Shown here piece after piece: positions 25,306 through 27,409 of a stretch of 40,175 bases of DNA; the first letter of the stretch is position 1, and each line of letters starts with the position of its first letter. Source of the DNA: Lachnospiraceae bacterium (GTDB taxonomy: Bacteria > Bacillota > Clostridia > Lachnospirales > Lachnospiraceae); NCBI GenBank assembly GCA_017962825.1, contig JAGCUO010000084.1, forward strand, positions 1 through 40,175, in the 5' to 3' direction. The notes beneath the pieces were generated by a model. It had not been told where the DNA came from. It searched no databases and worked only from the letters and a program-made list of their open reading frames with translations. The translations under genes and the position numbers were made by a program.

Positions 25306-25372
25306 ATGACAGTGGGGACGTACCCCTTTGTCAGGTGAACCTCCTGACAATGGGGTACGTCCCCACTGTCAT
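25306..25372. repeat. Hairpin repeat, GGGGACGTACCCC subtype, in the leader of the wall hydrolase gene
   Basis: 30-base arms (25306-25335 and 25343-25372) with a single mismatch and a seven-base loop TGAACCT. It lies between the promoter and the start codon of the downstream gene, ending 12 bases before the ATG, in the place where a ribosome site would be expected. Confidence 0.88.
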
Positions 25373-25384
25373 ATAGCGCATGAT

Positions 25385-26446
25385 ATGAAGAACACTATTC
25401 TGAAAATCACATCAGGGTTGGCTGCATGCCTTATCGGCATCCTGTCACCTTATTCCGGCCTTGCCGTAAGTGCGGGTCCTCTTGATGGTGCAAGAGGTGG
25501 CGCTTCGGAGGTTCTCAATTCATCCAACGCTTCAGAGTTAATTGATAATACGGTTGCGGAACTCCAGATCGTTTTTCCCGAAGAGATCGAGAATGATGAA
25601 CTGGTCATGGTTGATATACGCAATTACGTAAATGTCAGAAGTGAAGCTACGGTTGATTCCGAGAAGATGGGTGTCATGTACAAGGACTGCGGAGGTGTTC
25701 TCCTGGAAGAAGGCGAAGAGTGGTCGCTGCTTAAGTCCGGAGAACTCATCGGATGGGTAGAGAACGAATATCTTCTTTTCGGCGAAGATGCCAAGGATAT
25801 GGCGGCTGATGTAGGAATGACTTTTGCCATCGTAAATACAGCTTCTCTCAGGGTTCATACCGAAAGCAATCTCGACAGCGATGTCCTTACCGTGGTTCCC
25901 AAGAACGAGATCCTTGAAGTTGTAGACCAGACCACTCCCGGCTGGGTATATGTGGATTACGGTGATATCGACGGATACGTAGCGGCAGAGTATGTTGATA
26001 TTTCTTTTGAAGTTGACGCCGGTGAGACTATGGCTCAGATAAGAGCAAGAGAAGCAGCCGAAGCGGAAGCAAGACGTCACCAGAATTACGGCGAGTTTAT
26101 GACAGGTGCAGACGATATGCTCCTTCTTGCAGCGCTTATCCAGTGTGAAGCGGGCGGCGAGCCTTATGAAGGCCAGGTTGCGGTTGGTGCGGTCGTTATG
26201 AACAGAGTAAGATCTGCGGCATATCCCAACACCATCCACGGTGTTATCTATGCATCCGGACAGTTCACACCTGCGATGAGCGGAAGAGTCAATCAGGTTT
26301 ACAATTCCGGCAACATCAAACAAAGCTGCATACTCGCAGCGCAGGAAGCACTCAGCGGTGTGTCGAACGTAGGTGATTTCACCCACTTCAGAACCAACAA
26401 CGGTGCACATACCGGAATTGCGATCGGACATCATATTTTCTATTAA
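25385..26446 (+). CDS. Secreted cell-wall hydrolase, SleB family, with two SH3-type domains
   Basis: A 353-residue exported protein. The signal peptide spans about residues 1-31 (basic start, hydrophobic core, end near AVSAG). Two bacterial SH3 domains follow at about 75-140 (NYVNVRSEATVDSEKMG...) and 150-215 (ASLRVHTESNLDSDVL...), which usually bind peptidoglycan. An Ala/Glu-rich helix (about 220-240) links them to the C-terminal Hydrolase_2 domain: LLLAALIQCEAGGEPYEGQV with the likely catalytic Glu, AVGAVVMNRV, and DFTHFRTNN near the end. This domain is found in the spore-cortex lytic enzyme SleB and in many vegetative wall hydrolases. With SH3 domains and WalR-like boxes a role in vegetative wall turnover is more likely than germination. 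No ribosome site is visible before ATG 25385. Confidence 0.88.
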   Translation: MKNTILKITSGLAACLIGILSPYSGLAVSAGPLDGARGGASEVLNSSNASELIDNTVAELQIVFPEEIENDELVMVDIRNYVNVRSEATVDSEKMGVMYKDCGGVLLEEGEEWSLLKSGELIGWVENEYLLFGEDAKDMAADVGMTFAIVNTASLRVHTESNLDSDVLTVVPKNEILEVVDQTTPGWVYVDYGDIDGYVAAEYVDISFEVDAGETMAQIRAREAAEAEARRHQNYGEFMTGADDMLLLAALIQCEAGGEPYEGQVAVGAVVMNRVRSAAYPNTIHGVIYASGQFTPAMSGRVNQVYNSGNIKQSCILAAQEALSGVSNVGDFTHFRTNNGAHTGIAIGHHIFY

Positions 26447-26472: not shown

Positions 26473-26501
26473 TTGACAAGACATTAAAGATTACATAGAC
26501 T
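26473..26501 (+). promoter_or_regulatory. Promoter for the antisense (antitoxin-like) RNA
   Basis: A consensus -35 TTGACA (26473-26478), a 17-base spacer and TAGACT (26496-26501). The predicted start is at about 26508-26511, just at the conserved GGTGCTACC. Confidence 0.55.
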
Positions 26502-26510
26502 TAACTATAA

Positions 26511-26590
26511 GGTGCTACCGATAGACGGTTGCCCACATAGTGAATTTGGAAAAAATAACCGCATCAGTTGGTGGCTGGCGGTTATTTTTT
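26511..26590 (+). ncRNA. Candidate antitoxin RNA of a type I toxin-antitoxin locus
   Basis: A predicted transcript of about 80 bases runs from the promoter at 26473-26501 to the terminator at 26550-26590. It contains no open reading frame of note. Its 5' end reads GGTGCTACCGATAGACGG. Its 3' half is fully complementary to the terminator region at the 3' end of the toxin-like message on the other strand. Its 5' part also contains CTACCGA, complementary to TCGGTAG in the 5' leader of the opposite transcript. This convergent layout with a shared terminator and a second contact near the 5' ends resembles the Fst/RNAII par system of enterococcal plasmids. Function is inferred from layout. Confidence 0.5.
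26550..26590. terminator. Bidirectional intrinsic terminator
   Basis: A 13-base perfect stem (26550-26562 with 26578-26590; core AATAACCGC / GCGGTTATT) has A-runs before and T-runs after it on both strands. It would end the antisense RNA and the wall hydrolase message on the plus strand, and the small toxin-like message on the minus strand. Confidence 0.8.
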
Positions 26591-26592
26591 AT

Positions 26593-26679
26593 TTACGCTT
26601 TTTTCCCGACAGTATAGCCGAGAGCAAAGCAAGTAATTGCAAAGCCTAAAACAGCTATTAAGTCAGTGACTGTCAGCAT
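26593..26679 (-). CDS. 28-residue membrane peptide, candidate type I toxin
   Basis: A short gene missed by length cut-offs. Translation gives a peptide beginning MLTVTDLIAVLGF, then AITCFALGYTVG and ending KKA: one membrane helix of about 20 residues with acidic Asp6 near the outside end and two Lys at the C-terminus. This is the pattern of small hydrophobic toxins annotated in Firmicutes as holin-like or Fst/TxpA-like. A strong AGGAGG lies 11 bases before ATG, a little far. A good promoter (26794-26822), a leader of about 107 bases and a terminator directly after the stop codon define a compact transcript. A convergent antisense RNA overlaps its 3' end. Toxic activity is not shown by sequence; a small regulatory membrane peptide is the alternative. 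Confidence 0.65.
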   Translation of the reverse strand: MLTVTDLIAVLGFAITCFALGYTVGKKA

Positions 26680-26793
26680 TAATAAAATGTCCTCCTGTCG
26701 AAGATTCCTCTTTCGAGGTTTCTATGTAAACAGAGTTCACAGTACTCCGAGAATCGGACAACCGCCTACCGAGTATGGTAGCACCCAAAAAAG

Positions 26794-26822
26794 ATTATAA
26801 TGCAAACATATGTTCGAGCCAA
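26794..26822 (-). promoter_or_regulatory. Promoter for the small membrane peptide gene
   Basis: Read on the minus strand: -35 TTGGCT (26822-26817), exactly 17 bases, then a consensus -10 TATAAT (26799-26794). The predicted start at 26786 gives a transcript beginning GGGTGCTACC, nearly the same first bases as the convergent antisense RNA. Confidence 0.65.
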
Positions 26823-26896: not shown

Positions 26897-27409
26897 ATGG
26901 GTGGACAGGTAGTTTTTTGGCTTGTAGTCCTCGCAATCTGTGCGGTTGTTGAGCTCGTTACCATGGGGCTCACCAGCGTATGGTTCGCCGGAGGTGCTTT
27001 GGTAGCCGCATGTATCGCTTTGGTGTGCCCTTATTTCTGGGTGCAGGCGGTTGCGTTCATTGTTGTGAGCGTGGTGCTTCTGGTCTTCACTAAGCCTATT
27101 GCGGTTAAATTCTTTAACAAGGGACGCATTAAGACAAATGCGGAGAGCCTTATAGGACAGAGAGCCATCGTTGTATCCGAGATAGATAATCTCAAAGGAA
27201 TCGGAGAGGTTACCGTATCCGGACTTGACTGGAGCGCCAGAACCGAGGAAGACGGACTCGTAATCCCCGAGAAGGCGGTTGTAGTCATCAAGAAGATCGA
27301 GGGAGTTAAGCTTATCGTCGAGCTTGATGAATCACTCAAAGGTCTGATCAACTTGGAAAAATCCGACGTTCTTCTCAGTCCCGAGCATATAGAAGAGCAG
27401 GAAGATTGA
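26897..27409 (+). CDS. NfeD-like membrane protein
   Basis: A 170-residue protein with two or three N-terminal membrane helices (about 5-25, 30-48 and 50-70), followed by a small C-terminal OB-fold domain (about 85-150: SLIGQRAIVVSEIDNLKGIGEVTVSGLDWSAR). This is the short NfeD form (NfeD1b) without the N-terminal ClpP-like protease. These proteins work with SPFH/flotillin-type partners, which matches the next gene, 23 bases downstream. The pair organises membrane microdomains. A strong ribosome site (GGGAGGT) precedes the ATG. A possible extended -10 (TGGTAAAAT, 26858-26866) lies 30 bases upstream. Confidence 0.85.
   Translation: MGGQVVFWLVVLAICAVVELVTMGLTSVWFAGGALVAACIALVCPYFWVQAVAFIVVSVVLLVFTKPIAVKFFNKGRIKTNAESLIGQRAIVVSEIDNLKGIGEVTVSGLDWSARTEEDGLVIPEKAVVVIKKIEGVKLIVELDESLKGLINLEKSDVLLSPEHIEEQED

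Follow-up and report, generated by a model that had tools for sequence, protein, structure and literature searches.

TisB and DinQ are described, in the part of PMC8309996 that deals with them, as SOS-induced membrane toxins of E. coli. According to passages in PMC8309996 and PMC4147584, TisB is a 29-aa membrane peptide encoded by a LexA-repressed gene whose leader structure limits translation, and IstR-1 is a small antisense RNA that is not SOS induced, comes from a divergent gene and is complementary to the tisB 5′ UTR over 21 nt. In the par module of pAD1, as the same two papers outline it, RNA I and RNA II converge on a shared terminator and carry 5′ repeats, and the toxin, Fst, is a membrane peptide. 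TxpA/RatA of B. subtilis is also convergent, with a 3′ overlap of approximately 75 nt and a 59-aa toxin (section in PMC4147584). Among the Clostridia, the type I modules of C. difficile (CD2517.1-RCd8 and others) consist of convergent, overlapping toxin and antisense genes, with toxins of 34 to 59 aa; in the relevant sections of the review that covers them, the SOS-inducible modules named are from E. coli, and the word LexA is absent from its main text (PMC6563280). One passage (in PMC8167048 or PMC10903887) puts TisB in B. subtilis, which we take as a slip.

The window analyzed here, meaning the whole stretch of 40,175 nucleotides, is contig C184 of a 3.03-Mb draft Lachnospiraceae genome of 204 contigs (81% complete, 4.7% contamination). 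An earlier note on this DNA had pointed to a locus with a type I toxin-antitoxin-like layout, an assignment that is supported, as its parts are conserved over many genera and the same RNA chassis carries Hol_Tox peptides elsewhere. The features of the locus are the following.

25328-26446, plus strand: cell wall hydrolase gene with SH3 domains, one flank of the module
26473-26501, plus strand: antisense promoter, TTGACA-17-TAGACT, from the scan and family conservation
26511-26590, plus strand: inferred antisense (antitoxin-like) RNA of about 80 nt, matched by the family model R1
26511-26534, plus strand: 5′ element of the antisense RNA, GGTGCTACCGATAGACGGTTGCCC, a mirrored copy of the leader element
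26550-26590, both strands: bidirectional terminator with 13-bp arms, equal to the 41-bp overlap of both inferred RNAs
26550-26786, minus strand: toxin mRNA of about 237 nt, its ends inferred from promoter and terminator
26593-26679, minus strand: toxin-like ORF of 28 aa, MLTVTDLIAVLGFAITCFALGYTVGKKA, with one hydrophobic stretch and a KKA tail
26691-26696, minus strand: Shine-Dalgarno (SD) sequence AGGAGG, read from the sequence
26707-26718, minus strand: leader stem-loop 3, CCTC/GAGG, which covaries in the family
26731-26749, minus strand: leader stem-loop 2, CGGAGT-ACTGTGA-ACTCTG, seen by eye, of which RNAalifold retains three pairs
26756-26785, minus strand: leader element GGTGCTACC-loop-CGGTAGGCGGTTGTCC, a 5′ hairpin plus a segment possibly pairing with the SD region
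26794-26799, minus strand: toxin promoter −10, TATAAT, with a 17-nt spacer to the −35
26803-26816, minus strand: putative LexA (SOS) box CGAACATATGTTTG in the toxin promoter spacer, matching 13 of 13 scored consensus positions
26817-26822, minus strand: toxin promoter −35, TTGGCT, from the scan and family conservation
26897-27409, plus strand: nfeD gene, the other flank of the module, followed by a band-7/SPFH gene

The 28-codon gene for a membrane peptide read in the earlier note is confirmed, with a best 19-residue Kyte-Doolittle mean of 2.1 for its product, and the locus offers what is expected of a type I toxin gene, a small hydrophobic peptide with its own SD sequence and promoter. An antisense gene complementary to the toxin mRNA is likewise predicted from the sequence, with the 41-bp overlap and a conserved promoter. 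The bidirectional terminator at which both transcripts would end is borne out by its arms, AAAAAATAACCGC (26550-26562) and GCGGTTATTTTTT (26578-26590), which are 100% complementary, and by fold z scores of −4.7 and −5.1 on the two strands, beyond chance; a simple terminator scan, restricted to loops of 3 to 8, did not list it.

The near-identical starts of the two transcripts, also claimed earlier, correspond to GGTGCTACC, an exact 9-nt inverted repeat at 26511-26519 and 26777-26785. A second 9-nt inverted pair exists in the same 381 bases and the GGTGCTACC repeat alone is within chance; we deem it meaningful because it is conserved across loci, not because of its length. The other exact pair, TTACATAGA (26491-26499 and 26721-26729), relates the antisense −10 region to the conserved leader word ACATAGAAA and is probably due to chance, since antisense −10 regions vary in many relatives. 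The complementary CTACCGA/TCGGTAG words are present as well, inside the conserved 5′ elements, and the sole direct repeat at the locus (12 nt, 92%) is part of neither inferred RNA.

With TisB/IstR-1, the module of the window shares a LexA box in the toxin promoter, a membrane peptide, an antisense RNA and leader structure, but its RNAs converge on a common terminator, where they would overlap by 41 bp, and have mirrored 5′ elements, whereas IstR-1 is divergent; the two peptides look unrelated by eye. The resemblance to par/Fst that had been proposed stands for the layout, as this module also has convergent RNAs, a shared bidirectional terminator, a small membrane peptide and short 5′ repeats. 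It does not extend to the repeats themselves, which are direct in par (DRa/DRb) and inverted here, so that the 5′ parts of the RNAs are complementary in par and nearly identical in the window module, nor to the peptide, which lacks an Fst-family match, and a LexA box is present here; membership in par/Fst was dropped because of the inverted repeats and the missing Fst match. TxpA/RatA is similar in its convergent toxin mRNA and antitoxin RNA that overlap at the 3′ end, but the window module has an overlap of 41 bp, a peptide of 28 aa, conserved 5′ elements and a LexA box, and its peptide has no Pfam or NCBIfam match that would make it TxpA-like. The C. difficile modules share the convergent overlap within the Clostridia and differ from the window module in its 28-aa peptide and LexA box. 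Hol_Tox (PF16935) occurs in the same chassis elsewhere, but the window peptide gives no match to it over the curated cutoff.

The genes around the window copy look chromosomal, as had been stated, but the module is not alone in the genome, which has a second, diverged copy (L002, C145:18662-18739, peptide MTILEFITVISFMVAVFELGYLFGSKRK). In L002 the chassis is present, and the flanking ORFs appear by eye to be SDR-like and cation-transporter-like. Among the 31 genomes of the genus, 29 have the nfeD gene, and the chassis is complete beside it at 2 of the 29 loci, in the window genome and in G874, where the ortholog occupies the same site within a 3.1-kb stretch of 85% identity to the window and its peptide is identical at 26 of 28 residues. 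Both the hydrolase and nfeD genes are retained in 13 relatives (L253-L265; blastn), with the module intact in 1, reduced to remnants in 2 and absent from 10. One remnant (L254, in G872) keeps the terminator and scraps of the antisense RNA, and the other (L258, in G884) the terminator and a LexA-like box, both without the toxin (partly by eye); the terminator left beside nfeD in these two genomes may now serve the upstream hydrolase gene. As it is intact in few of the relatives that keep the flanks and persists as remnants in two, the module is lossy and dispensable at the nfeD site. Absence from close relatives that keep the surrounding DNA had been named beforehand as an argument against the locus, and at this site it is largely what we find; given that the module is conserved elsewhere, we take this to mean that a dispensable module was lost or gained.

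Peptide relatives are widespread in the family, as the tblastn search proposed in the earlier note returned them in 53 of 200 family genomes at an E value of 0.1 (own genome included) and in 38 of 200 at 1e-3. A profile built from 18 peptides (A1), in which F18, G21 and G25 are invariant, matched 53 of 344 order genomes and 19 of 348 phylum genomes at an E value of 0.01 and 14 of 31 genus genomes at 0.05, tallies that take in weak matches within longer frames. In the phylum set, matches outside the own family in short frames with an E value below 1e-6 come only from five genomes of the family f60, and a further match (1.7e-6) falls within a frame of 102 aa. The window peptide has no family at E values up to 1 in Pfam or NCBIfam, and some of its relatives likewise give nothing over cutoff in these databases.

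The surroundings of the peptide gene are conserved too. Counting 85 distinct peptide loci, from which matches with an E value above 1e-5 and peptides longer than 60 aa were left out, the leader element is found in 72 and the antisense element in 53, some being cut by contig ends. Searching the collected loci for the 22-base antisense element with no more than 4 substitutions gave 169 places, 116 of them with the leader element upstream, and 112 of these 116 also had an SD-preceded ORF, although at least 3 of the 112 ORFs are evidently wrong. The 116 loci were used for counts of promoters and LexA boxes after dropping 2 with less than 60 bases of flank and 17 of the remaining 114 as at least 80% alike, leaving 97, and by loose patterns 74 of the 97 have T-runs on each strand of the terminator region.

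Promoters facing each other had been read at the locus, and both are present. The promoter scan alone is within chance (3 promoter-like sites versus 1.8, standard deviation 1.5, in shuffled sequence), although we accept both as real because they are conserved across loci: a correctly placed −35/−10 pair matching at 10 or more of 12 positions is present in 30 of 97 toxin promoters (0.8 expected) and in 49 of 97 antisense promoters (0.9 expected).

Folding of the leaders was done on 36 of 50, leaving out mostly short or odd ones. RNAalifold finds a near-invariant 5′ hairpin (CUACC/GGUAG), a hairpin upstream of the SD sequence that covaries at two pairs (CG to UA in 13 and 9 sequences) and a conserved GGUU..YCC stretch that pairs with the SD region, although in this last helix no pair is changed on both sides in the 36 leaders. 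The antisense RNA (44 of 49 sequences used) folds into a near-invariant ACCG/CGGU hairpin and a terminator with covariation in its stem (of the 44 sequences, 12 have GC in place of AU and 3 have UA in place of CG). In a divergent subgroup (L020 and L025), the antisense RNA has GCTACCGCGATGACGG and the leader TGATGGCGG, apparently changed together (by eye), hinting that the mirrored leader and antisense elements coevolve.

Pairing between these RNAs had been proposed as a check in the earlier note. For the cognate test, the 109 loci left after removal of 4 that lacked an SD-preceded ORF and 3 whose ORF is evidently wrong were reduced to 95. The conserved leader stretch pairs slightly better with its own ribosome-binding site (RBS) than with those of other loci (z of −2.5, 33 of 5,000 permutations), with a smaller cognate excess for the whole leader element (z of −1.5, 320 of 5,000). 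The antisense 5′ element has no cognate excess with the RBS, the leader or the terminator (z of 0.9, 0.8 and −0.1; 95 loci), and it pairs with the leader only modestly better than shuffled sequence does (mean z of −1.1) and no better than homodimers do. Specific antisense-leader pairing was rejected on this last ground, and mimicry by which the antisense RNA would pair with the RBS found no support in cognate versus noncognate pairing. The role of the mirrored 5′ element could be mimicry, a hairpin-hairpin contact or the binding of a shared protein.

The LexA box, the breadth of the family and the swapped toxin ORFs had all been missed by the earlier note. The Gram-positive LexA operator consensus is CGAACRNRYGTTYG, and CGAACATATGTTTG, between the −35 and −10 of the toxin promoter, is a full match to it. 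A strict search for 14-base sites gave one in the 40-kb window and three in the genome, one of them (C27) 62 bases upstream of an uncharacterized ORF, and we therefore turned to a 12-base core and to the placement of its sites. The core word GAACRNRYGTTY is found at 10 places in the genome versus 24 for a reversed control pattern, so that the count is not enriched, and it is the placement that is telling. Two core words lie in the recA promoter, two directly upstream of small LysM genes (C117 and C91), one at this locus, and one each upstream of a KilA-N gene and an IS1595-type transposase gene; the rest lie before the C27 ORF, inside a methyltransferase ORF (C152) and 3′ of an integrase gene (C70). 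Six of the ten (recA, the LysM genes, this locus and KilA-N) look like SOS targets, the others not clearly so. The LysM gene of C117 lies two genes from lexA and recalls yneA, and lexA itself has three imperfect boxes upstream (12, 10 and 12 of 13).

Across the family, toxin promoters match the box at 12 or more of 13 positions in 24 of the 97 nonredundant loci versus 1 of 97 antisense promoters, with 0.01 expected by shuffling, and at 11 or more in 31 versus 8 (0.48 and 0.32 expected). Their position is nearly fixed: 33 toxin-side sites score 10 or more, and the start of 26 of these falls at −27 to −29. Promoters with a box scoring 11 or more are found not only for A1-type toxins but also for others in the same chassis (L127 and the Hol_Tox loci L157 and L173). 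In the G874 ortholog, the box reads CGAACGTATGTTCA, with changes that respect the LexA consensus apart from the last base. The antisense promoter of the window is without a good box (best match, 10 of 13, at −55). Eight antisense-side boxes of at least 11 (L011, L026, L074, L131, L141, L187, L200 and L234) start at −49 to −53 and extend into the −35, and at these loci the toxin side is boxed too.

Judged from conservation, the module is a real, conserved, type I toxin-antitoxin-like one, with a LexA box in a subset that includes the window member. The reading that we favor, and hold to be probable, is that of an SOS-controlled type I toxin-antitoxin module on the chromosome, silenced by its antisense RNA and TisB-like in its action. 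In undamaged cells, LexA would repress the toxin gene through the box in the promoter spacer, any toxin mRNA would be poorly translated owing to leader self-inhibition, and the antisense RNA would bind the 3′ overlap (perhaps also the 5′ hairpin), the duplex being blocked or cut. Upon DNA damage, LexA would be cleaved and toxin mRNA would exceed the antisense pool, and the peptide would then insert in the membrane and slow growth in the manner of TisB in E. coli. In its most cautious version, the mechanism would comprise repression by LexA, self-inhibition by the leader and silencing through a 3′ duplex. If true, TisB would have an SOS-controlled counterpart in Gram-positive bacteria (the parts of the literature consulted name SOS-inducible type I modules from E. 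coli), and DNA damage-induced dormancy would become testable in gut commensals. An antitoxin RNA family new to Rfam, with carriers among as many as 92 of the 200 family genomes sampled, would be added as well, and a type I toxin module would be seen to retain its RNA while swapping its toxin.

How far the RNA reaches was followed with a covariance model (R1) made from 44 antisense RNAs, the window locus being one of them. At an E value of 0.001, R1 has matches in up to 92 of the 200 family genomes, no two of them from one genus by tally, and in 18 of 299 genomes in the phylum set. In each of the best 30 family loci, at least 17 positions of the 22-base antisense element are matched. Twenty picked weaker loci show it in 10, are right by eye in 4, with a variant or gapped element before the terminator, and stay unconfirmed in 6; as the element is confirmed in only part of the weaker matches, 92 of 200 is an upper bound. 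Of the 30 phylum-search loci, 24 come from other families, and the element is present in 5 of these 24, so matches outside the family are largely unproven. Rfam has no match in the window over gathering score, and at the locus it gives only Thr_leader (E values of 0.31 and 0.82), far under its cutoff. Antisense RNA and terminator without a toxin ORF by the rule used were seen at L302, L305 and L310 (a copy at G129:C90 lies near another), possibly orphan antitoxins or decayed modules.

This RNA is also found with other toxins. In the stretches of named genomes and viral contigs listed for an exact antisense-element pattern, 136 elements were counted, and for 48 of them no peptide matching the A1 profile lies within 400 bases; contig ends and decayed or related copies account for some of the 48, and many have other small membrane ORFs nearby (by eye). 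Ten hand-chosen chassis peptides were compared with Hol_Tox, and four exceeded its cutoff of 23.3 bits (L157, 26.5; L173, 27.5; L217, 24.0; L222, 24.0), with one just under it at 21.4 bits. As the chassis carries Hol_Tox and other peptides, it outlives its toxin. Weaker R1 matches at L356, L357, L358, L360 and L361 stand beside Hol_Tox-like frames (MSDFELLSIVLMIL...; in L356, MSDFELLSIVLMILGIIVSILVAYINHTKK) that by eye appear to be a further toxin group. No earlier description of the module family or its RNA chassis was found in the literature searched, a scope outside which most subscription papers lie; the kind of system is already known, and the function of this chassis is inferred.

A wider reading, which we offer as tentative and somewhat doubtful as a whole, is that the antitoxin RNA, in up to 92 of 199 genera, is a common chassis on which membrane toxins are swapped, with mimicry at the 5′ ends and LexA control acquired later in some lineages. 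Bearing the sequence with which the leader conceals its own RBS in cis, the antisense RNA would perform the same task in trans, and the addition of LexA control in some lineages would yield the Gram-positive counterpart of TisB.

An unlikely explanation, though the most probable of the rivals, is that the type I module serves mainly to maintain an element or region, the LexA box being a secondary, lineage-specific trait of little effect. Most promoters are indeed boxless: 66 of 97 score below 11, and boxes of at least 11 are found in 0 of 14 promoters of the MSIV peptide group and 0 of 16 of the MDIL group (named by their first four residues). The second copy of the genome, L002, is absent from the LexA-box sites found in the promoter scan of the 97 loci, and because of it and of the 66 boxless promoters SOS control is not universal in the family. 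Mobile carriers are also found, as the exact antisense-element pattern occurs in at least 119 stretches of named genomes (among the matches listed, mostly Lachnospiraceae, including Blautia, Roseburia, Coprococcus, Butyrivibrio and Fusicatenibacter) and in 10 of viral contigs, peptide relatives are present in one phage record and two plasmid records, and several genomes have two or more copies on a single contig (e.g., G140:C31 and G111:C69). Against maintenance as the main role stand the near-fixed position of the box where it is present, with matches far above chance, its retention in the G874 ortholog with changes within the consensus except for the last base, and the chromosomal-looking neighbors of the window copy.

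Still less probable, in our view, is a nontoxic, SOS-induced regulatory membrane peptide, tuning for instance division or transport, with its level set by the antisense RNA and no toxin-antitoxin pair involved. SOS-induced small membrane proteins other than toxin-antitoxin toxins exist, and the window peptide, whose toxin role is inferred, has no family match; however, Hol_Tox peptides occupy the same chassis, and patchy occurrence, clustered copies and remnants suit a dispensable toxin-antitoxin module. A small, MITE-like mobile repeat bounded by the GGTGCTACC inverted repeat, with incidental promoters and ORF, would account for the inverted 9-nt ends and the many copies across many genera, but is very improbable and was dropped, as conservation extends beyond the repeats into both promoters and the G872 remnant is not bounded by repeat ends (by eye), and most loci keep the ORF and SD sequence.

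Some of the LexA core words elsewhere in the genome deserve a brief mention. Those upstream of the LysM genes belong to similar but nonidentical copies of the LysM-gene neighborhood near lexA (L040 in C91 and L041 in C117), each with LexA boxes, which may reflect a duplication or a contaminating strain, given the 4.7% contamination. The core words of L045 (C195:1408-1419) and L043 (C153:1288-1299) lie just upstream of the KilA-N and IS1595-type transposase genes, respectively, and that of L039 (C70:91-102), close to the end of its contig, follows the 3′ end of an integrase gene of the Tn916 type by about 110 bases (gene families by Pfam); these three are possible SOS-controlled mobile elements.
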